Part shown: one piece after another, positions 3,216-61,207 of the stretch
Numbering within the stretch: the first letter of the stretch is position 1
How the letters are laid out: each line of letters begins with the position of its first letter
NCBI GenBank assembly: GCA_905220665.1
Contig: CAJNAR010000042.1
Location: 1 to 64,000, forward strand
Direction: 5' to 3'
Length of the DNA stretch: 64,000 nt
Source: Albugo candida
Taxonomy: Eukaryota > Oomycota > Peronosporomycetes > Albuginales > Albuginaceae
Notes under the pieces: generated by a model
The model's input: the letters and a program-made list of their open reading frames with translations, nothing else
The model's database searches: none
Told to the model about the DNA's origin: nothing
Program-made: the position numbers and the translations under genes

Positions 3216-3430
3216 TTTACAACTTTCAACATTTATCCGTTACACGATAGATACACTCTCGTACTGTAGCGGTGGACGCTACCGCACTGCAGTACTAGCA
3301 ACGAGGGACATATTATCATCTCTCACAGGTATTTCGCGAAAAGTTTTTATATGTATATATGTTATTTAAGATAGCCTAGGCAACTAGAAAAGTCAGTTAG
3401 TCTAATTCTAGTAATATAGACACCTTCAAC

Positions 3431-3635
3431 TGATAGATTAGAGACACGTGCCTTGTTAAGGCGTCTCAGATCTTGTGCACTTTGTGATGGCGAATCCCTG
3501 GATCGTTAGGGCCCTTGAACAGGGATTTTAAGCTCTTAAGCTTGTTGCCTCGTTGAGTCGAGTTCTGTTCAGAACTATATTGCTCGTCGAGCAGATATTC
3601 TTCTTCCTGCAAATAGCTATACTAGCTCCGCTACA
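3431..3635 (+). repeat. 3' part of a gypsy LTR next to LINE copy 1
   Basis: This 205-bp stretch is homologous to the reverse complement of 40139-40342, the outer part of the 3' LTR of the gypsy element. Identity is roughly 85%, with the first 56 bp nearly perfect. It ends ...CCGCTACA, the family's LTR terminus. It starts TGATAGATTAGAGA, the counterpart of the 14-bp duplication TGATCGATTAGAGA that flanks LINE copy 2. What follows (GAGAGAATTC) does not look like the family's primer-binding site, so this is a 3' or solo LTR. Sequence beyond it is unrelated to that flanking the other gypsy copy. Confidence 0.88.
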
Positions 3636-20258: not shown

Positions 20259-22716
20259 AAAATCACGTCTGAATGTTCGCTTCAAACCGTTTCAATAATG
20301 ATTAATCCATTTTTAGAGCCGAAACGATATCCATACCGCCACATAGTACCGCTGCCGAAGTGAATTTTCAATTATCATTGCCTGAAATCCATTTTACCGA
20401 CAGTCCATTTATACGCAAGCTTCAAGATGCGCGGCATCTAACAAAAGGCAAAAGTTAGCCACAGAAGACACACAACAAGATTAACAAAATTTAAGGCTTT
20501 ATAATTGAAATCATGTCGGTGCTGAGATCGTCATCGGCATTTACGATTCTCGTTGAACGATATCTCTCTCTATCAGGACACTGGAGAATCGATTCTGACT
20601 TTTGTATCGAGAGTGTAAGCTTCTCAAAGTATTTCAGCTCGTTCTTTTACGTCTACAAACCAGTAATAATTACATATCTAGATTGCTGAAAAACATTCTG
20701 GCGCATGTTCAAGATTCACTACGCATCGCCCGTGATGTAGAAGCCCCAGAGAGCATCATGATCTTATGATGACTATCGGACGCTTTTGTGAATTATGCGA
20801 AAAAATGGATGGCGAATTTCTAAGATGGGACGAATGATGTTTCATATTCACAATGTTGTTGTAGAGAGAGCAAGCGAAGCATACGGTCTTTATACTCGTA
20901 AAATGCGGAAGGAGTATCACAACCCTTGACCGCGTATTTTCTGAGCTTAGATAAAAGAACTTTGACCGGTTGAACGCCTCTCTGTCATCAAAATCAGATC
21001 ACGGGGGGCATTAAAACTCAGCAACCAAAGCTGCTACACTCATACATTCTAAATAAGCAAGGACGACGTCATATGCGATCGGTTGAAGGCGTTCATGGAG
21101 TAATGTAATGCCTGGAATTAGCGTAAAGCTCGTTGAAATATTTAGGTGACCTAGTACGAGGACCATTTCGTGCCCGGTATGGACATGAACTTGAAGTCTA
21201 TTTCACAACGTTACAGCGTCCATCGGGAAATAATTCGCAGTGTTCAAAATTGTATCGGAATGCAAATGGCTATTGAATGCTGTATGAAGAAGCTCACTTT
21301 TTGCACTTAACACCATACAAGACGCTAAAAATCTCCTCAATTCGATGCCATCTAGTTGCAAGTATCCCGAAATGCAGTGAATGGAATCTTTGTAAGTAAG
21401 TCACAGTACAGCCTCCAGCACGTGGAACAAATCCGAAGGCAATCGATCGAAATGCGGGTCGAATGTTTATGGATAGAGAAGCACAAAATGCTATGGTTGT
21501 TACATCAAGAGGAGCTCATAGGCTTGACCGGGAGAAATCAGTTGTTCAATGCGTCTCAAGTCGTGTGCTTATAAATAGATAGGTGCGATCGGGATTAGAA
21601 AATTGCAAATACAAATTTGCTGGTCGGAAAGCCTTACATGCTTGCTCGGCGTTACCATCGAGCTGTCCAATCCATCTAAATCAGAGGTAGTCAAAATATC
21701 TCTTGTGTACGATAAATAAGGAATCGCTTTGGGTTCAAACTTAATTATCGAGCGCAGGCTTCTGGAAGCATTGATTGGATGGACAGGTTGATCTCGACGA
21801 GCCATTGCAGCTCGGGAGTAGCGATGGTCCCATACTTGTCCAGCACAAAATTACGTCTTATGAAAAAAGTGCGACTACGAGCTGTACGTGACGAGCAAAG
21901 ACGGCTGTAGAATGTCTACAACTAGGAATGTCTGCTTCGCAGCCAAGTAGAATACAGATTGTCACCACTAAGCACGGTTGCCAATCGAGGTATACTTCCG
22001 TGCTGGTGAATCAGCGATCCATCGAGATTGAAAATGGGTAGATTAATACGCTTGTACCTTTGCTTTTTATCTTTCCTCGACCTATGGTCATATATTTTTT
22101 GACGCACTCAGCTGTCTAGTGGTGTGCTTGTGCTACGCATTATTGATATATTTTCGAGCTTGTATACTCTATCAGCAAGTATAATATTACAGAATTAAGA
22201 AATGGTATGCGTATCGGTCGGTACTAATGAAGTGATGCAAATACAGAACCAACATAGTATTCCTGAACAGATAATAAGTTTTCGGATGCCTCGTAATACC
22301 GGGCAGTTTTTCGAGACGTAACGCATTCTGTCGGCTTGTGTTCTTATTCTCAAAGACTTTATACCATTGGAGTTCGTCATGATGAATGTATGTCGACAAT
22401 ATCTACTCACTACAAGATGACCATTGCTCAGAATATCAAGTGTAAACCAAAAAACTCATTGAAGGGGGTGAAGTTGACACTGTTTTGATATCATGCACTC
22501 ATCATGTCATTTGTGATGATGGACTTCTGGTACATAGAGATTCATGTTGGACGGAAGAAGACAAGTATTCACAACAATTGACATAGAATCATAACAGACA
22601 TACGGCGACAGTAATTCGGATAAATGTATTTATAAAAATATCTTCGACTGTTGCGTGAGTGTCACAGTCACTCCTGACCGACTTTAGAAGCTTCGCGATC
22701 TCCTTTGAAGAGGCGC
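20259..22716. other. 2.5 kb without a recognisable gene
   Basis: Short open frames on both strands (21356-21574 +, 21805-21569 -, 22107-21922 -) have no recognisable domain. Some stretches between 20680 and 21560 look like shredded coding sequence, but I could not assign a family. The last 100-200 bp presumably contain the promoter of the PIH1 gene. Confidence 0.45.
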
Positions 22717-24111
22717 ATGAACTTTGGTATTCTGAACAATAAGCGATCACAAAAAGGACTCGCTCTGTCTTCCGCTGAACTCAAGTTTGAAAAAGCACAT
22801 CATCATGCTAGAAGCATGGGTATAGATATTGATGAATCTGATAGTGCAGCTCGGGGTATATGGGACCGATTGAGTGAGCTTTCAAGGTCAGATCCTGAAG
22901 GGTACCGAAGGTTTCTAAAAGATCATCTACTAGATGATCATATCGCTAATCGTAATAGCGATAACGACGGGCTAGGTACTTTATTTCCTCGACCAGGATA
23001 CGTGCTAAAATGCCGCAGTATCCAGCCGGGTGATTCGTATCCAGTCAAACTTTTCTTGAATATCTGTACCCATCAAGCAATCGATCGTCCAATCAATCCT
23101 AACTCTGAGAAATCTGTTCCAGATGACCCCTATAAAGTACCAGTAACCAATAATCTTCGTATTCCACTATTGGTTGGACCTCTAAGAACGCATTGTGACA
23201 CAGCCGGATCTCGATACAAAGCGATTGACGTGGTTTTCAATTCGTGGGTTACGAGTCGCTGTGAATGGGATCAAACATTTAAACGAGAAGTTCTAAAATT
23301 AGCAGCTGAATGGGCTCAGCACGATGCAGGTATATCTATCACCTCTACACCAAAATACATCAACTGTCGATATAAAGGGGGAATTCATATTGGTAAAGAT
23401 ATCATCACTGCCAAGTTACGCGTAGACGAAAGTGGAAAAGTCATTGATACAAGTTTTGATGGCAGAATAAAACCCGATGAAAACGGGATCGCCAAGACCC
23501 CGGCGGATTTAGTGAGACAATTGCAGGATGCCAAAGAGAATGAAAGTAACCCATCCACGATAATCGATTTGCACTTGAACGTTAAAGATCACGTACATCA
23601 GAAATCAATATCGATGAAGCCTCTTATTGAAATCGTGGAGTCAAGTACACCTACCGATTCCCGGAATGATGATGACGCTACAAAGTGCTGTAATGAAGAA
23701 TCGAACCATAATGCCCGATCGTCCAAGGAACATCAAAGTGGACCAGTTTGCTACAAACCAACCAAGTCGGAGTCTGTTATGAAAAAAGGTTTTTTAAGTA
23801 AAGGCACCGATCCGAAGCTCTACCCGTCTGGCTCCAATGAAGGAAGAAAACCATCAGCGCTGGTAAATTTACTTTCACGAAGTAAAGTTGTTGACTTGAA
23901 CCAGTTGAGTCCGGCAGAAACTCGTCCGAAGAAGTCTTCTGGAGATAAAAAAACGAAGTACGACATGGACCACGAGTTTGAACAACTTTGCCATGATGCT
24001 GATCCAGAGTTGTCAAATGGTCAACTTGACACATATTTACAGAATGATCAAGGAGAGGTCTTCCAAACACCATTCCTAGAATTATCCAACTTGATCCGTA
24101 CAGTTAGCTAG
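22717..24111 (+). CDS. PIH1-domain protein (R2TP / dynein-assembly cochaperone family)
   Basis: Single-exon gene of 464 codons. The first in-frame ATG is at 22717; an upstream TTG is less likely. Residues about 45-66 (RGIWDRLSELSRSDPEGYRR) form the helical leader common in PIH1 proteins. Residues about 86-235 form a PIH1 domain: FPRPGYVLKCRS, VKLFLNICTHQAIDRP, LRIPLLVGPLRTHCDTAG, YKAIDVVFNS, FKREVLKLAAEWA and NCRYKGGIHIG. The C-terminal 200 residues are polar and probably disordered, with no CS domain visible. PIH1 proteins act with Hsp90 and RUVBL1/2 in assembling large complexes, including axonemal dyneins and snoRNPs. Which subfamily this is (PIH1D1, PIH1D2 or other) is inference; the layout resembles PIH1D1 most. 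It converges on the channel gene at 24765. Confidence 0.88.
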   Translation: MNFGILNNKRSQKGLALSSAELKFEKAHHHARSMGIDIDESDSAARGIWDRLSELSRSDPEGYRRFLKDHLLDDHIANRNSDNDGLGTLFPRPGYVLKCRSIQPGDSYPVKLFLNICTHQAIDRPINPNSEKSVPDDPYKVPVTNNLRIPLLVGPLRTHCDTAGSRYKAIDVVFNSWVTSRCEWDQTFKREVLKLAAEWAQHDAGISITSTPKYINCRYKGGIHIGKDIITAKLRVDESGKVIDTSFDGRIKPDENGIAKTPADLVRQLQDAKENESNPSTIIDLHLNVKDHVHQKSISMKPLIEIVESSTPTDSRNDDDATKCCNEESNHNARSSKEHQSGPVCYKPTKSESVMKKGFLSKGTDPKLYPSGSNEGRKPSALVNLLSRSKVVDLNQLSPAETRPKKSSGDKKTKYDMDHEFEQLCHDADPELSNGQLDTYLQNDQGEVFQTPFLELSNLIRTVS

Positions 24112-40138: not shown

Positions 40139-40342
40139 TGTAGCGGAGCTACTATAGCTCTTTTCCAGAGGAAAGATATCTGCTCGACGAGCAATTTAGT
40201 TCTTTAGCGAACTCGACCCAACGAGTAACAAGCTTAAGAGCTTCTGGTCCTTGTTTAAGGGACCAAACGATTCAGGGAAGCGACAACACAAAGTGCACAA
40301 GATCTGAGACGCCTTAACAAGGCACGTGTCTCTAATCGATCA
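40139..40342 (-). repeat. Gypsy 3' LTR, outer part
   Basis: On the minus strand this is the end of the 3' LTR, finishing ...CCGCTACA. Its inner 14 bases (40329-40342, TCTCTAATCGATCA on the plus strand) are one copy of the LINE target duplication; the other copy is 47468-47481. Confidence 0.95.
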
Positions 40343-40571
40343 GTTGAAGGTGTCTATATTACTAGAATTAGACTAACTGACTTCTCTAGTTGCCTAGGCT
40401 ATCTTAAATAACATATATACATATAAAAACTTTTCGCGAAATACCTGTGAGAGATCATAATATGTCCCTCGTTGCTAGTACTGCAGTGCGATAGCGTCCA
40501 CCGCTACAGTACGAGAGTGTATCTATCGTGTAACGGATAAATGTTGAAAGTTGTAGAAAGTTGAGAAAAAT

Positions 40572-40672
40572 ATGGTCCAATACTACCGTGTGCTGTAAAA
40601 GGGTCCAAAAGTACCGTGAGTTGTAAAACGGTCCAACGTACCATGAGTTGTAAAATGATCCAAAGTACCGTG
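40572..40672 (-). repeat. Tandem repeats in LINE 3' UTR, copy 2
   Basis: The same four imperfect 27-30-bp units as at 3105-3215, read on the minus strand; GGTAC.TTGG-like starts recur. Confidence 0.75.
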
Positions 40673-40725
40673 TTGTGCGCAATGATGTGCGCCACACTAC
40701 GGTGAGAATAGCCAGCCAACTAGGA

Positions 40726-43700
40726 CTAGGATCCGAGTTGCACTTGCCGTTCCACTCGCCTGTACCGGACCCGCAGCAATGATCTTCGACTGTTGAAAAA
40801 TCCACCAAATGATCCTTGCGTTGCGAGTTGATCCAGAACCTTTGCAAGCCAGATGCGTTCCTCTTGGTCGTAACACTGTCTTCGAAAGTACCGAACGTGT
40901 GCACTAAACGTGGTGTAAGTGACGGAAAGTGCTGGAACTGTCGGAGTTGCTGATCGATGATCGAACAAACGACGATTCCGATCTGTCCAGACGAAGTGCA
41001 GTGTCACCGCTTGCAATGAAAGCCATAAATCTGATATAATTGCTAAATATTCTTTCCACTCCGACCGTAGTGCTGGTACGATTGCACATGCAATATGCGT
41101 CCAACGTAGTCGAGAGGAGAAAAACTGATCCCAACTAGGGAGTAACTCCCTCCATAACTGTGCCGTGTGATCGCACTCTAAATAGAGATGTTGATCGGAT
41201 TCCACTGCCCCACACGAAGGCTGCGTGCACAATATAATGTCGGGCTGAACATCCTTTAAGAACCAGAAACGAGATCGAACTGGCAACATTCGAAAGGCTA
41301 GACGAAACTGTAAATCTTCGAAAATTGGTAACACACGTTTTCGAAGATGCCGTGATGTAGCCATAAAAGTTCGAACTCGTTCGGAATCCAGTGCGTCCGA
41401 TCTCTCCCGTGATGACCAATGTGTCGACATCGGATGACTCTTGGTTGGTTCGGGAGGTTTCCAGACGATTCGTGAGAGTTGTGATCGTGGAATAGATGGA
41501 AAATAATGTTTCCGTTCCTTGCTTCTTACTCCCACATAAAATGATCTGCCACTTGTGGTTGGTATAATCCAAGTGATGAGACCAAATCGTCGAGTGGATA
41601 CGCTGGAGAATCTGAGTGACTTCATTGTAAAGTCGACTCAGCAACTTTTCTTCAGCCATATCCGATGTGTTTAGCTCTTCGTCGTTGTAATAGTTGGCGA
41701 CGAAATCTTCCTTCGTTGGCCATGTGTCGTTTCCTCGAAAAAAGTCTTGAAGACTGCGAATCTCGAAAAGCATAGCAAACGTTTTTCGAAATGTGCGATG
41801 TGGTTCGTCCGCCATACCAAGATTGTACCAAACGTTCTGCGTATTCGGGTTACGAGTAGCAGCTTCGTAATGTAATTTTTGGTCGCAGTGAAACCACATC
41901 GGTTGTTCCATGTAGTACTGACGGCGTTGTGAAACATTTAAATCTGATATTGAAATGCTCCAATTCATCTGATGCCACATTTCAAATGCGTGTTTCCACC
42001 ATGACGATGTGCTGTCCCAGTGAACCATTTTCCCATGTCGATTTGGTGCGATGGTGAATATATCCATCGGCTTGTGTGGTCCAAAGGAAGGTTGGATAAG
42101 TTGTAAGAATTCCGTCGAAGCAGTTGTCAATTCGCAGGAATAATTGTTGACGCATCGGATGCGAACTGCTGAAGGAATTGAATACGTTGTAGCTTTAGTC
42201 GTCCCAACAAAAAAGGAACTTGTAGTCCACCTTCTTGTCGACCAAGATATAAAAAGTCTTTGCTGAGTAGGTGAACATGTTTTGAATCATTTTTGTGTTT
42301 CCGACCAAGCACAAATCGATTTAACATCGATTGCCACTGTCGAATAGTCACTGCTGGTATGTCCACGTGCATCGTGTAATGCCACAAACGGGATAAAATC
42401 ATCGTCTGCGCAACCAGTAGTCGACCTCGAACAGTTCGTGCTCTTCGAAACCATACACCAAACCCATCGTAAAAACGCTTGTCGAGAGTTGAAATAACCA
42501 TCGAGGGAGTTGGTTTCTGGCCGAGCGGAATACCCAAATACTTGACCGAATCCTCCGGACCCATTATGGTCAAATTGGAATACGCGGACATGACTTGGTC
42601 CGATTCAACGAGAGCGAGGATGATTTACTCAAGTTGACTTTCGCACCCGATCCATCGCAATAGACTTGGACGAGTTCGAGTTGCGTCAAAACACCATTTG
42701 GTGTCTCTGAAAGCAATGTCGAATCGTCCGCAAAAAATAATCCAGTTGCGACAGTCGTGCCATTAATCCAAATGCCATGTTCTTCATGTTGTCGAAGTAA
42801 ATTTCCCAAAGGTTCGATCGTTATCAGAAAAAGTAATGCTGAGAGAGGATCACCTTGTTTCACTCCACGTTGTGGTGTAATAGATGGTGTGATATTTCCA
42901 TTAATCATCAACTGCGCCTTTGTGTTATTGTACAAAAGACGAACCCAGTCGATGAAACTTTTTCCAACACCCATTTTTTCCAAAACGCGAAACATGTACG
43001 TCCAATTGACTCGATCATAAGCTTTCTCAAAGTCGAGAAAAGTCGCATAAGCTTCCTCCCCACGATGAGTGACCAAGTCTTGGATGTCGGTCAGATGTCG
43101 AATATGGTGATGCATTGACCTTCCTCGCACGAATGCTTTTTGATCTTGATGGATCAATTTTGGCAAAAAACGTTGCAATCGATACGCCAACACTTTTGAA
43201 AGTACTTTCACATCAACGCAAAGCAGTGCGATCGGTCGATAGTTGCCAGGATCACCTCGTGATCCTTTTTTGTATAAAAGTGTTATTGCTGAGTGACGTT
43301 GTGATCGAAGTAAAATTCCTCTCTCCAGCTGATATTCGAACACGATCTTCAGACACTCGCCAAACGTTTCCGGATCAAGCTGATAAAATGCAGCTGGTAG
43401 TCCATCCATACCTGGAGATGAACTACTCCGCATGTGCTTGATTGCTTCCGCCATCTCGGTCGTACTTAACCGAGTGGAGAGACGGTCTTGCTCTGCTGAG
43501 GCAAGTGAAACTTGAATCGAATCGAGCAACTTTTTTTGCTTTCTGTCACATGGAACATTTGAGTCGGTCTCTGAGCTATAAAGAGAGCCCATGAAACCAC
43601 CCCAATGATCTCTGAATTCGTCAATAATCTCCCTCGGGTTCGATGTCACGGTACCACATTTTTTGGTAACATTTTCGATCGGCACCCGACGACAAGAACT

Positions 43701-44907
43701 ATCCGGAGGGTGAAAAAAATGCTTTGAAGAGTTCTCCATATGCTTCACGTGATGGTCGAAACTTTCATCTTGGTTGTATTTCGCCATTGTTTTCGACTGA
43801 AATTCTAAATTGTTGGAGACTCGATTCGTAAAAATACCGTGACTCATTGGTGTCTTGGATGCGATATCGAGCTACTGCGACTTCCAAAACACGCTGGCTA
43901 GACTCAACATCACGTCGGCTATCTTTTGCAGCCTTTTTTTCAATGCTTTGAAGCTGTTTCTTGATTTTCGTCTTCCATCTTTCCCACATTTTACCGGGAT
44001 TCGAAGTTGTCCGTAAGTGTTCGAGCACCAAAATCGCTTCCAATTTGATTGCTTCGACAACTTTAGGATATTCAAATAGTCGTAATGAACATTTCCAATA
44101 TCCTCGACCCGGAGATTGAGTTGGATTTGCAAAAGTTACTTTTTGTACCAGATGATCTCCCGCTTGTCGTGGACGAAAATACTCAGAGGTTTTGTATACC
44201 ATATTGAATAGCTCTTCCGACATGCAGATGTAATCAAGTCGATTCTTGCGCGGTAATCGCCCTGTAAATACTTTTTCAGTCGGATGTTGGATTCGCCAAG
44301 CGTCTACCACACCCAACTGTGAAAGCCATTCCAAACACGCTAATCGACTTGGTTCGTGTCGAATTGTTCCACTCGAAGCATCGATAGCTGGATCGAGTGG
44401 CGTGTTGAAATCACCAAATACGATATGTGTTGCGGTCGATTCGAAAGTGTTGGAAAGCAATAACTCATAAAAACCCACTCGTTCCTCGGCCTTGACCGGT
44501 GCATATACATTGTGAATATACACCGGTGCATCGTGAATGAGAAGACGCAGAACCAAATAGCGATTTCGAATGCTTCGATCGGTGAGTTCTTCAGCTGTTG
44601 TATAACCGGGAAAGTCCGAACGAAGGATTGTCATGACGCCGCCACTGCGGTTTTGAGTCGGATGGAGAAAAGCACTGTTGTGACCATTGACAAACATTTT
44701 GTGCTGCATTTTTGAGGATAATAAAAATTGAAATGATTCCAGTTGGTTGTGATCGTGAAACTTGGTTTCTTGAACACAACAAATGGAGTGTTGTGATAGG
44801 ATGTGGTCGATAAAAAGATGACCATTTTTATGAATTCCATTAACATTCACCGTGAGTGCTGAGACATTGTTCCACGTTGAAATAATCGAGGAGCCCTTAG
44901 CATTCAC
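40726..44907 (-). pseudogene. LINE ORF2: endonuclease, reverse transcriptase, zf-RVT
   Basis: The frame starts in the overlap with ORF1 and spans about 1390 codons. Endonuclease motifs: SALTVNVNGIHKNGH, CCVQETKF (Glu), YIHNVYAPVKAEERVGFYEL, HIVFGDFNTPLD, RLDYICMSEEL and a DH near 44150 (44907-43765). Reverse transcriptase, 43847-42570: GDPGNYRPIALL, FLDFEKAYDRVNW, GVKQGDPLSALLF and the catalytic GLFFADDSTLL. The C-terminal zinc domain (LCTQPSCGAVESDQHLYLEC) lies at about 41250-41150. One-base indels shift the frame near 43800, 42590, 42130 (a G lost relative to copy 1) and 41600. The protein would nick the target and copy element RNA; this copy cannot. Confidence 0.93.
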
Positions 44908-47375
44908 GCTGAAGTGGACCAGTAATCAACCTCATTTCACCATCTTGTTGTGAGAGGTGAAGTGTTGTGTGCTCCTCTGGAAAAAAGCTGAGATTGACGG
45001 AAAGCTCAGCGATGTCACCATGAAGAAGTCCACGCCATCTACCTCCAAACCATTGAGACCAACACTTTATCCCAACGTCGGAGCGGAAGAAGGATATGAT
45101 CACATTGGTTGGAAGTAAACGACAATGATGACCCGGAATCCAGATCACTGGTCCATCGGTGAGATATTGGATCCAGTGGTCGTTGGTGTAGAATGTCGGA
45201 GCAGTACACATGAATAAAAGTTCCAACAACGCGAGAGCTTTCGTTGCTCGAGTCAAACCGATAACGATGTCCGGCACTGACGTCCACCACGACATTACTT
45301 TCTCGAACAGGACAGATCGCTTGGAGGGAACTTTTCCACCAACGTGGCGACTCCATCGTGTCGCAAACGTAACATCTTCGCCGAGATTGTGAGTTGCAAA
45401 AACGCGATTTATCATAAGTAGATGAGCCACTTCATCCAAAGCTTTATCATTCGACTCCATACACGAAAGTAGCACACCATTCATCGTGATCGGATGATCA
45501 AGTGCCGCTCGGATGATTTTGTCCGGATTTGTGCAGAACTGGATTAGCTTCCGCACATGAGGGATGCAAGAATCCGCTTGAAGCAGCTTGTCCGGTCGGA
45601 GTGAGTGAAGGGCATTTTTCGAATCGATTTCCATTAGCTCCCCTATTTCACCAACTCGGGTTGGTCGCTCCGATTTCTCGATCGTTGTATGCCGTTTCTG
45701 ATAAAAGTGTGCCGCCTCTTTCGAGGTGGCCACCTCTTGTGGCATCCGTGCTTTCACGGGGATGATTTGAACGCGATTTCCATTCTCCGGATTGGCAACC
45801 GCTTTTATTTTTTCGATCTCCACTTCCATAGTTGCGAGCACAGAAAAATAATTACTCGTCGCTAGTTTCGGAAGCGCACGAGGTGGTGCTTTGGAGACCA
45901 TTTGCTCGAACGGCTCCACCCGGTTACGTTTTCCACTCGTCCAAGCCAACTTCATGGATACATCCCCATCCCGCTATACCCGTGGTTGTGAGTATGACTG
46001 ACTGGTCAGTTGGAGGATGCGAGGAGACGGCTGGAATAAGGCTGATGCCCCTGGTGGTGTGATAGTTGGGGAAGTATTGAGCTCCAACGAGATTTGATCG
46101 GAGAGCTTCCGATCAGGTTTCCTCGCTTGCAATTCTTGACTGAGAACTGGCTTCACCACCTTTTGTGGTGCCACCACGAGCACCGTTGGCGCGTTTGTTT
46201 GTTTTGGTTGCTGTTTGGGTTTTTGTTGTGGTTGATTTTGATTGTGGTTTTGCTTTTTCTTTTGCTTGTTGGATTGTTGTTGCCGTGCTCCCGTGGTTGA
46301 TATAGCATACAAATCCAAGCAATAAGGACCACGTTGACCAAAACGTGGTCGTTCCGATGGGATAGGAGCGTTTTTCCCTCGCACAGGGTAAAGCAACTTT
46401 TCGTATGCAATTTGTTCGCATACTTTACCGATGCGGACCAGCTGTGGAGGGCACGTAGGAGTACTAAAGTACACTCTCCACGTCGACATCACGACACCCT
46501 TGCACGGAACAGTTTCGCGGAAAGTAGCAAAGACGACTGGACATCCTAGACTGTGAAGGGAAAGTAAAATCGGAATCCGTTCTTCCTCCACGCCCACTCC
46601 AAATATATCCAGGTAGTATTTGGATTCGAGAGAATCGTACTCCCGAAAAAAGTATTGAGACCCGAGGATGGTTATCGGCTGGCACTCCAGCTGTTGACAA
46701 GCATCCTCGGTGGGAACCATCACTCGAAGATTGCCACCAGGCATCTTTGATACTTGAGCAATGGCTCTGCTCTCCAATAGACTCTCGAATACTGGATTTG
46801 CCATGATCTTTCATAAGGGAAGACAGGATTTTCCCGTTTGGTGTACGCAGCAACGCTTGACCTGATTCCAGAATCATGGGAAAGGTGGCCTTGGAGACCT
46901 TAAAAGGCTTCGCTGCCTCCAATCTTTCAGCCAACACCGACCACGCGGGATGTTGTCCATCAGCATACAATCGCATGATAGACTCGATGTCCGAGGCTTT
47001 CGGCTTTGGGAGCTCCACGCGAAATTTTGCCCGAGCTCTAGCCTGGTCCTTACGTAAGGACTCCTGCGACTTGATTATTTCTGCCGAAGTGGGACCTTTG
47101 GTGTCGTCCACACTTGCAGTTGCCTTTGGGTCATCCTGTGACGAGGCAACGACAGTACCGCATGTACCACCTGAACCACATCCTACACCGGTAGTTCCGG
47201 TATTACCCTTTATCGTCACACTGGGGGTGGGGGTACTTTCCACGTCATCACATAGGGGTGATGACTCATCAACAAACATGCAATCACCCAAAACAGGGTG
47301 ACTCATGAGGGTTGCCACGTCACTACAAGTGGACGCTAGCACCCTTGGTTGTGTCGATATGTCGACTTGAACCAT
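44897..47375 (-). pseudogene. LINE ORF1
   Basis: About 826 codons, starting at an ATG at 47375. One frameshift near 46805 joins the first part (to ...RTPNGKILSSLMKD) to the second (MANPVFESLLESRAIAQVS). One in-frame TAG at 45974-45976 precedes the last part. The middle contains a Gln/Asn/Lys-rich stretch (about 46300-46200, QQQSNKQKKKQNHNQNQ), suitable for RNA binding. No CCHC knuckle was seen, unlike many plant and oomycete LINEs. ORF1 proteins bind the element RNA in the ribonucleoprotein. The end overlaps the ORF2 reading frame by 11 bp. Confidence 0.8.
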
Positions 47376-47467
47376 TGTTTTTGAGAGGAAAGAGTTGAAA
47401 AAAGTCGTTTTTTCGAGGTGTTTTTACTAAATTAGCGGGTTACTTAGTATCCGGCAAATTGAGACGT

Positions 47468-47481
47468 TCTCTAATCGATCA
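47468..47481. repeat. LINE target-site duplication, right copy
   Basis: TCTCTAATCGATCA on the plus strand, identical to 40329-40342; the bases on either side differ. In the LTR sense this is TGATCGATTAGAGA. Confidence 0.93.
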
Positions 47482-47661
47482 AAAGGGGAACTATTATTTG
47501 AATATTTTTATCTAGAAGAGTGCCTTACGCTAAACGTACCTAACCTAGGTACAAATGTCCGGTGGTTGACACGCGTCAGTTCCCAAAGCGAATAATCCAA
47601 AGCGTCCCGAATGTGTACCACACTGCATAACGGTTACTAATCGACGTGTAACCCTGTAACA
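47482..47661 (-). repeat. Gypsy 3' LTR, inner part
   Basis: On the minus strand it starts TGTTACAGGGTTACACGTCG and runs to the LINE junction. It aligns with the corresponding part of the 5' LTR at about 90% plus one indel. Confidence 0.95.
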
Positions 47662-47834: not shown

Positions 47835-48674
47835 CTACTGGCAGGAAGCGCCTTTAGTTGCAGGATGAGCCTGTCTGTGATGTTCAAAAACATCCATGGC
47901 ATATGGGAAATCCTGCCGAAGGGGTATCTCATACTCCCATGAGTTCTCTGACTCGGGATACCCTCGCCACTTCGTCAGATACTGATTTTGGCCATGACGA
48001 CGACGTCGCGCGAGAACCTTCTCAACATGGAAATGTAAGTTCCCTTGCTTGTCAAGCAACGCCGGTGGTGGTCGTTGTATCGGTGGATGACCAGAAGAAT
48101 CTGGTTCCCGAAGTGACGTGTCTTCGCGGGACTTTGGGTTAGACCCATCGTACGCTTGACGCGGTACAGACTCTCCTTCAGGCGTCGGAGCATGTTCAGA
48201 CCCGGGTTGGGCCTCATCTTGACATCCTTGTTCGGATGCAGCAGCTTGTGGCAAGGCCAAGTGACGCGGCGCAAGCGCCCCAAAGTCAACGTGGGACGGA
48301 TCCCGGTACGGCTTGAGTAGGCCAACGTAAAATCCGGAGTGTGTGCGCAATTTGCGCGGAAGGTTGAGAGTGTAAGCAAGGCCCTTTTTCGCCATGACCG
48401 TGAATGTCCCAATGAAGCGTGGTCGCAACTTTGTCTCGAAGACAGCTGACACTACATTTGTAGGTAGGTTTTTAGTACTGAGTAATACCTGGTCTCCGGC
48501 CTCATAACTTTCAATACAACCTCTGCTGTTAGCATCAGCTTGCTCCTTTCGTTGCTCTTGGCTCTCAGCCATTGCATCCCGCGCATGTCGTAAGACATTT
48601 AATCGCGTTGCGAGATACTCGCTGACCTGTTTCTTGGCAGTATCAGGGCTGACATCAGCAAGCCGATCAGCCAT
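47835..48674 (-). pseudogene. Gypsy integrase C-terminus and chromodomain
   Basis: The 279-codon frame has the integrase tail (YEAGDQVLLSTKNLP, KLRPRFIGTFTVMAKKGLAY, then LRTHSGFYVGLLKPY) and near residues 218-270 a chromodomain: FHVEKVLARRRRHGQNQYLT, then KWRGYPESENSWEYE. The aromatic cage positions are occupied in part by Tyr and Trp. Chromodomains direct chromoviruses to modified histone tails. It overlaps the upstream integrase frame in another phase, so a frameshift separates them. Confidence 0.9.
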
Positions 48675-49453
48675 CTCTCCCCACCAAGTCCTAAACCACG
48701 CAGAGATAGCGTTGACTGAACGCGAGGGTGGGTGGGTCCGTTCACGTAGAACGGAGTATAGCCGGTAGAGGCATGATCAGAGTTGGATAACGCAAACTCA
48801 ACCACAGGGAGCATAGAGCTCAAACTCCGAGCCGTATTAGCGCAAATGCTGCGTAAGATATCACCAATAACGCGATTAACTCGCTCAGTTTGACCATCGA
48901 TCTGCGGAAGATCCGCGGTGGACATATCAAATCGGGTGCCAAGCAACTTAACGATGGACTTCCAAAACTGCCCCGTGAAGCGGGTATCTCTGTCAGAGAT
49001 AATTGCCACAGGTGAACCGTGTTGACGGAACACTCGATCGATAAACAGCGTAGCTGTACCTGCACCATAGATTGCTTCCGGCACAGACGCTAAATCACCC
49101 ATCTTGCTCAAACAGTCAACAAAGACCACGATACCCGTGTTGCCTTCCGAATCTTTCGGTAGGCCATACACAAAATCCATACTAATGGACTTCCAACACC
49201 CTGTGGGTACTGGTAACCTAGCTAGCGGTGTAGCCGCATGCGCTGAGGGTTCAACCCGCTGACACGTTTCACACGTACGCACGTATGGGCTTACCCATTT
49301 ATAAAGTTTGGGCCACAAATAGTTTTGGCTCACTGAGCTATAGGTCTTCTCACGACCGAGATGACCACTCAACCCAGTATCATGTGCCTCATAGAGAATT
49401 CGATACTTTAACTCATCATCATGAGGGACAACGATGCGAGGACTATCCTCCAC
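48599..49453 (-). pseudogene. Gypsy integrase core
   Basis: The H2C2 zinc finger reads HDTGLSGHLGREKT and CETCQRVEPS. The catalytic core has SISMDFVYGLP (Asp), AIISDRDTRFTGQFWKSI (Asp) and DGQTERVNRVIGDILR (Glu), so all three DDE residues are present in this frame. The enzyme inserts element DNA into the genome. The C-terminus continues in a different frame at 48674. Confidence 0.92.
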
Positions 49454-53623: not shown

Positions 53624-53978
53624 TGTAGTAGAGCTACTGTAGCTCCTTGCCATAGGAAGGCTATCTGCTCAACGAGCAACTTAGTTCTTTAAAGAGAACT
53701 AAACTCAACGAGTCAACAAGCTTTGAAGCTTAAGGTCCTTGTTCAAGGGACCTAACGATTCCGGGAATCGATCTGAGACGCCTGAAGCAGGCACGTGCCT
53801 CTAACTCTAAAGGGGAACTGTCCTTTATCTAGAAGAGTATTTTACGCTAAACGTACCTAAGCTAGGTACTAATGTTCGGTGGCTGACACGCGTCAGCTCC
53901 CAAAGCGAATAACCCAAAGCGTCCCAAATATGTACCACACAGCGTAACGGTAACTAACCGACGTGTAACCCTGTTACA
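53624..53978 (-). repeat. Gypsy 5' LTR
   Basis: 355 bp, starting TGTAACAGGGTTACACGTCG and ending ...CTCTACTACA on the minus strand. It is uninterrupted, so it shows the LTR without a LINE. At the LINE target position it reads CCCCTTTAGAGTTAGAGGC instead of CCCCTTTTGATCGATTAGAG. Confidence 0.95.
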
Positions 53979-60410: not shown

Positions 60411-61086
60411 GATTCATCTACATACTTTCGCTGTCGTTATTCCAGGATACAACAAGCAATTCAGCTAATGACAAATCGTTGAGGAGAAGTACAGGGACTT
60501 GGCTCCAGAGGTGAGTCATTTCAATTAAAGAAGTTTAGTTGACAAAGCCGGTAACTTAATCAAGGATAATAATATCATATTATGATAATAACTTTCTGGT
60601 TTTTTCTTCATAACAGTAGGGAAGGTGATGTTGACGAAAATTGAGACCTGCGCGAAGCTATACACCCATTGCTTGACGAGAACATGTGGCTAAATATTCA
60701 AACAATAGTGTCATTTTTGCGTACCTACACGCCTACACTAATTGCAAAAAGCATGTGGATGGTAACTTCTTTATCATTTATAGATCCTACTACGTTTGTG
60801 AAGCTGCGCAAGGGAGGGATATTGGTGTAGGTGCACCACCAGCTCATGTGGTTATGCCAATATGCCGCGTAAACTACAGACTCTACAGAAAACTTAGTTA
60901 CAATCAGCAGAGAGCGTTGATTATAAATTGCAATTATGGCTGGATTTTTTTCTTTTCTGAAATGCCTGCCTACTAGGATGCTTTTACTTTGCATACGATA
61001 AGTGCAGCTTTTCTTATGGTGTTACTGCCACCATCTAGAAGTGGACTTGAGAGCAACGGACATGGCGGGTCGAATGTAGGGGGCAT

Positions 61087-61207
61087 GTTTGTAAGTTTTA
61101 ATTTTAGGGATAGATAGACTCCTTAATTTAATTAACTGACGGTCCGAAAGTACTGTGTATGTTTGAAAGTTTTATTTTTAGGGATAGATAGACTCCTTAA
61201 TTTAATT
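61087..61207 (+). repeat. Direct repeat of about 47 bp at MULE right end
   Basis: GTTTG(T/A)AAGTTTTA(A/T)TTTTA followed by GGGATAGATAGACTCC and TTAATTTAATT occurs at 61087-61133 and again at 61161-61207, just before the terminal repeat. Only one unit would be expected in the inverted repeat. Confidence 0.75.

Follow-up and report, generated by a model that had tools for sequence, protein, structure and literature searches.

Two copies of a LINE in the genome of Albugo candida end at the same base, and in the same orientation, of LTRs of one gypsy family, which raises the question whether this LINE selects the LTR of another retroelement as its target. Both lie in the window, i.e., the whole 64,000-nucleotide stretch that was analysed; it runs from the first base of contig CAJNAR010000042.1 (C42) onward, and copy 1 was read from its 3' part only. 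Copy 1 passes directly into the LTR sequence TGATAGATTAGAGA, while copy 2 is enclosed by a perfect 14-bp target-site duplication, TGATCGATTAGAGA, a feature of APE-type LINEs of the L1 group (Table 1). At both copies the terminal CTTCAAC runs straight into the target sequence, without poly(A). The LINE bodies are 95.7% identical (136 mismatches over 3434 aligned positions), the LTR flanks on the 3' side are 85.4% identical over 205 bp, and comparison of the flanks of the two copies gave no match beyond the LTR. The other LTR of the gypsy element carries no LINE at the site. The common position and orientation, the repeated word around copy 2, the unrelated sequence past the LTRs, the empty LTR and divergences of about 4-5% for the LINEs and about 15% for the LTR flanks had been described in the original prediction and were confirmed. 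Its proposal of a site-specific LINE was borne out with respect to specificity, but the site appears to be tRNA genes, not the gypsy LTR. The exact 14-mer TGATCGATTAGAGA occurs three times genome-wide, and its third occurrence, on contig C33, lies in no LTR or LINE as far as its surroundings were read. Elsewhere in the window, an ORF of 468 aa (22705-24111) encodes a PIH1 N-terminal domain (E 7e-20), and two 71-bp repeats, 86% alike, stand in tandem at 61063-61207.

Table 1. Features of the two LINE copies and of the associated gypsy sequences, in positions of the window.
Feature	Position	Strand	Basis or remark
LINE copy 1, 3' part; 5' part beyond contig start	1..3430	+	
3' junction of copy 1, TGATAGATTAGAGA, LTR sequence	3431..3444	.	
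LTR flank of copy 1	3431..3635	.	85.4% identity to copy 2 flank
Part of gypsy LTR, 3' side of copy 2	40139..40342	.	
Target-site duplication, 3' side of copy 2, TGATCGATTAGAGA on minus strand	40329..40342	.	
LINE copy 2, 7125 bp; 5' start ACGTCTCAATTTGCC, 3' end CACCTTCAAC	40343..47467	-	
Reverse transcriptase ORF piece, copy 2	42570..43847	-	PF00078, E 1.1e-33; best solved relative human LINE-1 ORF2p
Apurinic-type endonuclease ORF piece, copy 2	43765..44907	-	PF03372, E 6e-9; solved relatives LINE-1 endonuclease entries
ORF1 region, copy 2, two overlapping ORF pieces (45974-46804, 46464-47375)	45974..47375	-	no Pfam match
Target-site duplication, 5' side of copy 2	47468..47481	.	
Rest of the gypsy LTR, 5' side of copy 2	47482..47661	.	
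Gypsy pol 3' part: integrase and chromodomain ORFs	47835..49453	-	
Other LTR of the gypsy element, empty at LINE site	53624..53978	.	limits approximate, from family matches

The reading frames of copy 2 are fragmented into pieces, in which the PF03372 endonuclease precedes the PF00078 reverse transcriptase. No Pfam match was found in the C-terminal pieces 40726-41625 and 41135-42130, which follow the reverse transcriptase, where a restriction-like endonuclease would lie; the endonuclease recognised is of the APE type. Judged from its domains the element is an APE-type LINE, and similarity searches make it L1-like: the best solved relative is human LINE-1 ORF2p (E 1e-10 to 2e-9 for the endonuclease, 3e-43 for the reverse transcriptase). 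Unlike human LINE-1, which is not known to target tRNA genes, it ends in CTTCAAC, with no poly(A) at the window copies; a poly(A) or simple tail is common, though not universal, in L1-group LINEs. A 599-aa piece of a copy on contig C149 has 52 relatives, mostly oomycete proteins among those with organism names. Its top match is 85% identical; among the organism-named matches the highest identity is to Albugo laibachii proteins (up to 72%), and the best E-value belongs to a Peronospora destructor protein (50%).

The original prediction expected most 3' ends of this LINE to join LTR sequence. A search of the 38.9-Mb genome with the 30-base LINE 3' end (up to 3 mismatches) found 426 places, with 0 for the backward-read control, and the 3' flanks of all 100 listed ends were examined; as zero-mismatch ends taken in the order of the contigs, they are biased towards younger copies. 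The LTR contains 2 of the 100, both from the window; most of the copies examined thus sit at unrelated sites, the outcome that the original prediction had named as its refutation. A pattern joining the LINE 3' end to the LTR site (up to 3 mismatches) occurs at 10 places genome-wide (control 1), of which two are the window copies, three are LINE junctions of the tRNA type and five are unrelated; it revealed no third LINE-LTR junction. All 31 other LTR copies that align across the site are empty (42 LTR family matches were collected, of which 30 gave loci, some overlapping others). LTR targeting as a family-wide rule is thereby refuted.

The site is also a poor one by the standard of the family. 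In a target profile built from the other 98 flanks, the LTR word of copy 2 reaches the top 1.6% of window positions and scores 3.3, compared with 0.5 for the copy 1 word TGATAGAT and 10.1 for TGAGCTAC. The notion that the site is the best target-like word within the LTR was rejected, as it ranks 12th among 828 LTR positions. A tRNA hidden in the LTR was likewise rejected, ARAGORN calling no tRNA in the window or the LTR. LTR breaks on contigs C17 and C2 do not represent further LINE hits, since these LTRs are continuous across the site and broken elsewhere, and the LTR on C156 is truncated, with no LINE start in the 361 bp read. At C17:92300-94750 (L151, L152) an insert of about 2.4 kb interrupts the AT-rich part of the LTR copy, and repeated ATATGGTTTATATACC-like words, oppositely oriented, are present at the two ends of this insert.

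The 3' flanks themselves point to another target. Among the 100 listed flanks, which were selected by the LINE end word CTTCAAC and hence provide no independent test of the tail, 94 start with TG, 81 with TGA, 56 with TGAGC, 36 with TGAGCTA and 4 with TGTGCTA, so that 40 of 100 start with one of the last two words. TGAGCTA is the reverse complement of TAGCTCA, the core of the tRNA A box. An inverted tRNA pattern (T loop, D arm, acceptor 5' strand) leading into the LINE 5' start was found at 13 places genome-wide (0 for the reversed control), and ARAGORN called an intact tRNA (Ile, Lys, Phe, Asn or Tyr) in all 12 of these junctions that were fetched, the one on C74 not being among them. One such tRNA-Ile gene with a LINE lies on the window's own contig, just past the window (65.58-65.65 kb). 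LINE and tRNA gene face each other head-to-head, 5' end against 5' end, and in the occupied genes surveyed the LINE begins at a fixed position, at most about 3 bp (0 to about 3) away from the tRNA, as is characteristic of a site-specific LINE.

Occupancy was assessed in a tRNA survey that yielded 65 matches (a sample of the best, 63 out of 1851 candidates having been scored). Of these matches, 32 lie on contigs C134 and C196, which, from the density and the mirrored arrangement of their tRNA matches, are probably organelle contigs and were left out; in the remaining 33 genes the 5' ends were read, and the A boxes were entered by hand. A full LINE 5' end, matched by script, was present at 15 of the 33 sampled genes, and one truncated LINE (C3) and two SINEs were recognised by eye. 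Within this sample a LINE or SINE occupies 18 of 23 genes with the A box TRGCYYA and 0 of 10 with other A boxes (Fisher P 3e-5). At least nine of these ten look like ordinary nuclear genes; one of the 33 (C5, empty and without the motif) is organelle-like. The surveyed types with a LINE are Lys, Phe, Ile, Asn, Thr, Met and Arg, those with a SINE Asn and Cys; the junction pattern added, from outside the 33-gene survey, Tyr genes on C59, C74 and C160 and a further Ile gene on C180, which gives eight tRNA types directly adjoined by the LINE (the seven of the survey and Tyr). From these sequence patterns we consider it very probable that the LINE family, with its APE endonuclease and L1-like reverse transcriptase, targets tRNA genes at the A box. 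Against this reading, five genes with the A box TRGCYYA are empty in the 33-gene sample, and the LTR site fits the target profile of the family poorly.

The specificity is leaky. A LINE 5' start follows within 45 bases downstream of 30 of the 100 listed 3' ends and a SINE follows 10, while the remaining 60 are followed by neither and mostly do not lie at a recognised tRNA end. Nevertheless, 21 of the 46 TGA sites among these 60 are TGAGC, compared with 4.3% in the window (P 6e-17); part of these 21 could represent solitary insertions into tRNA genes or into tRNA-derived repeats, which makes this enrichment outside tRNA genes an upper estimate. The endonuclease thus seems also to use other sites beginning with TG or TGA, enriched for TGAGC. 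Insertion at tRNA genes was seen for the main group of the family (L016, L022), whose 94.5-95.2% identity to the window copies over 2.7 kb makes the two parts of one family. Among the copies compared, the subgroup of the window copies occupies six distinct sites, including TGAGCTA (L011) and TGAGCTG (L015), and none of them was placed at a tRNA gene.

We read the LTR site TGATCGATTAGAGA as a secondary site of such a tRNA-directed LINE, either hit once and then copied or hit twice; this is an interpretation, and as far as the sequences go the choice between the two is about even. Two members of the window subgroup, L012 (C153:474457-475653) and L014 (C70:31545-32741), share the same 3' flank and represent a duplicated locus or a haplotype pair; they were used as a yardstick for true duplication. 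A segmental duplication of the window copies including both flanks was rejected, with the outer flank 19% diverged against 4.3% for the LINE and nothing alike past the LTR.

The chances are even that a single insertion was transferred from one LTR to a second by ectopic gene conversion (or LTR-LTR recombination), in which case the identical position would be trivial. The two copies lie on one contig, 37 kb apart, group as sister LINEs (support 0.994) and have 14 private alignment columns in common. Their common open-frame changes, 2 synonymous and 6 non-synonymous, are as in a dead stem. Moreover, the LTR flanks are 98.2% identical over the 55 bp proximal to the LINE and 80.7% over the next 145 bp, a pattern found in no other of 291 LTR pairs with an outer identity of 77-85%, of which only this one has an inner identity of at least 98%. 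However, the inner part may simply be conserved in an LTR subfamily, since the empty LTR L057 is 98.2% (inner 55 bp) and 88.3% (outer) identical to copy 2, and 96.4% and 78.8% to copy 1. It also counts against conversion that no frameshift common to both copies was found over 2.7 kb, disregarding a gap at the edge of the alignment (column 17), whereas L012 and L014 share four indels, three of them frame-shifting, though on a longer shared branch (0.022 vs 0.008).

Two independent insertions, as originally proposed, at a secondary site offered repeatedly by the multicopy LTR have a little less than an even chance. The divergence of the outer flanks and the exclusively private frameshifts make them plausible, and the site starts with TGAT, a class seen at other sites as well (e.g., L112 and L117). 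Yet TGAT words start only 7 of 100 flanks, both window copies included, which makes a double hit at one LTR position unlikely by chance; the copy 1 word TGATAGAT has a low profile score, and the sister relationship with its common changes, like the flank pattern, also fits gene conversion.

At the tRNA genes the duplication comprises tRNA nucleotides 1-14, in some cases extended by one to three bases. An inserted LINE thus has an intact tRNA gene at its 5' end and is followed, past its 3' end, by a repeat of the first 14 bases of that gene. The same tRNA-derived word was present on both sides in 9 of the 11 tRNA-adjacent elements with both flanks read, i.e., in LINEs on C149 (Lys), C157 (Lys), C160 (Tyr), C168 (Thr), C180 (Ile), C184 (Phe) and C3 (Met) and in SINEs on C29 (Asn) and C185 (Cys); the two ends were attributed to one element by their spacing of about 7.0-7.1 kb, the C3 LINE being truncated and the SINEs short. 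The two exceptions, which speak against the tRNA reading, are C74:17414-24569 (Tyr vs Phe) and C30:130550-137601 (Lys vs non-tRNA sequence), and their mismatched flanks suggest LINE-LINE recombination or misassembly. Head-to-tail LINE arrays were observed, and on C180 the tRNA-Ile word occurs at four successive 3' ends.

These arrangements can be accommodated by the following mechanism. The endonuclease would recognise the A box as DNA and nick the tRNA sense strand after A14 (TAGCTCA^), the freed 3' end would prime reverse transcription of the RNA end ...CCUUCAAC (...CUUCAAC), and the second strand would be cleaved at or near base 1 of the tRNA. The duplication would thereby rebuild the whole tRNA gene, which could then be hit again, and repeated hits on the restored gene would produce the head-to-tail arrays. 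As to the presumed order of arrival, each new copy would land between the tRNA and the earlier copies, and arrays would grow outward from the tRNA. A SINE with a similar 3' end enters the same sites, presumably by means of the LINE enzymes. On balance we favour this scheme in full, with the A box as the target word, cuts staggered over exactly tRNA nucleotides 1-14, and an intact gene left each time at many tRNA types; the targets would be inexhaustible, and LINE and SINE together would occupy most of the permissive tRNA genes sampled and supply their 5' flanks, a near-harmless niche for which searches of the open-access literature gave no description in any LINE. Pairing of CAAC with GTTG of the D loop was rejected as a requirement: Thr genes with GTGG and Arg genes with ATGG in its place carry insertions, and at the LTR site TTT stands there.

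Recruitment by Pol III factors, as in TRE5-A and Ty3, in place of recognition of the DNA sequence, is an unlikely cause of the association, although tRNA genes are the ones hit and, according to PMC5911963, the TRE5 ORF1 protein interacts with TFIIIB. The junction is fixed to the base and not spread over an upstream window, and the TGAGC core is common to many sites without a recognised tRNA. It is this enrichment, together with the absence of insertions from all ten sampled genes with other A boxes, at least nine of them ordinary-looking nuclear genes, that favours DNA sequence over Pol III factors as the signal. Finally, specific targeting of the gypsy LTR at TGATCGATTAGAGA by the LINE, or at least by the window subgroup, is very improbable. 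In its favour, two copies share base and orientation between unrelated non-LTR flanks, the LTR flanks have diverged more (14.6%) than the LINEs (4.3%), and L012/L014, one duplicated locus of the same subgroup, lies at TGATTGAT, which resembles TGATCGAT and TGATAGAT. Against it speak the lack of an LTR match in the flank of that locus, the census, the single pair of junctions, the 31 empty LTRs and the profile rank.

Several elements associated with tRNA genes have been described. The non-LTR elements LIN15_SM, LIN25_SM and NeSL-1_TV are related to the NeSL clade, with a restriction-like endonuclease. The first two (from planaria) and the third are described as specific for tRNA-Arg, tRNA-Glu and tRNA-Pro genes (PMC4640811), with one tRNA type listed for each, whereas the present element is of the APE type, with the LINE at eight types and the SINE at Cys. 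TRE5 and TRE3 of Dictyostelium resemble it as L1-type APE-RT LINEs near tRNA genes, TRE5 also in its opposite orientation upstream of the tRNA. However, TRE5 integrates 40-54 bp upstream, apparently via TFIIIB, and TRE3 40-150 bp downstream (PMC5911963); at 0 to about 3 bp this LINE falls outside both ranges, its junction coincides with the tRNA 5' end, its duplication falls within the gene, and whether a gene is occupied depends on its A-box sequence. Nearly the same place is taken by NLTR-A of Dictyostelium purpureum, which lies 2-6 bp upstream of mature tRNA sequences, but it has an RNase H domain, and the passages on it mention neither a duplication within the tRNA nor A-box dependence (PMC5006619). 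Dewa of zebrafish is likewise a sequence-specific LINE tied to tRNA genes, but targets the spacer of tRNA-Leu (PMC3706591). Several Dada DNA transposons are described as inserting at tRNA nucleotides 8-13 in the A box, with duplications such as TAGCTC (PMC8869645, PMC3706591); they differ in their DDE transposase, and a 6-bp duplication inside the gene would not rebuild the whole tRNA. Both LINEs near or in tRNA genes and the A box as a Dada target are thus already known. An APE-type LINE whose duplication restores tRNA genes of many types was not found in searches of the open-access literature, nor was any treatment there of Albugo LINEs with tRNA genes.

A central question for selfish elements is how multicopy genes can serve as targets and yet be left intact. 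R2-like and Dada elements insert within the gene copy itself, while TRE5 and Ty3 integrate outside it; in the present family the gene would be restored by the duplication, and this would account for the tandem LINE arrays as well as for the frequent occupation of permissive tRNA genes. The endonuclease is open to experiment, as its apparent word (TAGCTCA^) is unlike that of human LINE-1, and the many tRNA genes whose upstream sequence has been replaced by a LINE end constitute a natural experiment.

The SINE is about 330 bp long and was observed at L019 (reverse complement, about 2650-2985), C29:161.52-161.85 kb and C185:178.19-178.52 kb. It starts with GACCCCGTCGGGGGGCC, contains the B-box-like GGTTCGAATCC and ends with CACCCTTAAC; it has tRNA target sites in common with the LINE and a similar 3' end. 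The pattern ACACCCTTAACTGAGCTA occurs, with 2 mismatches, at 155 places (control 1), part of which are LINE ends. A second repeat, containing CCCACCCAAGCAATAAGCTTGG and GTTCGATC, was noticed by eye in the 3' flanks L023, L069, L081, L111, L116 and L192, at TGAGC words and in both orientations, and by the same visual comparison it looks like another multicopy secondary target.
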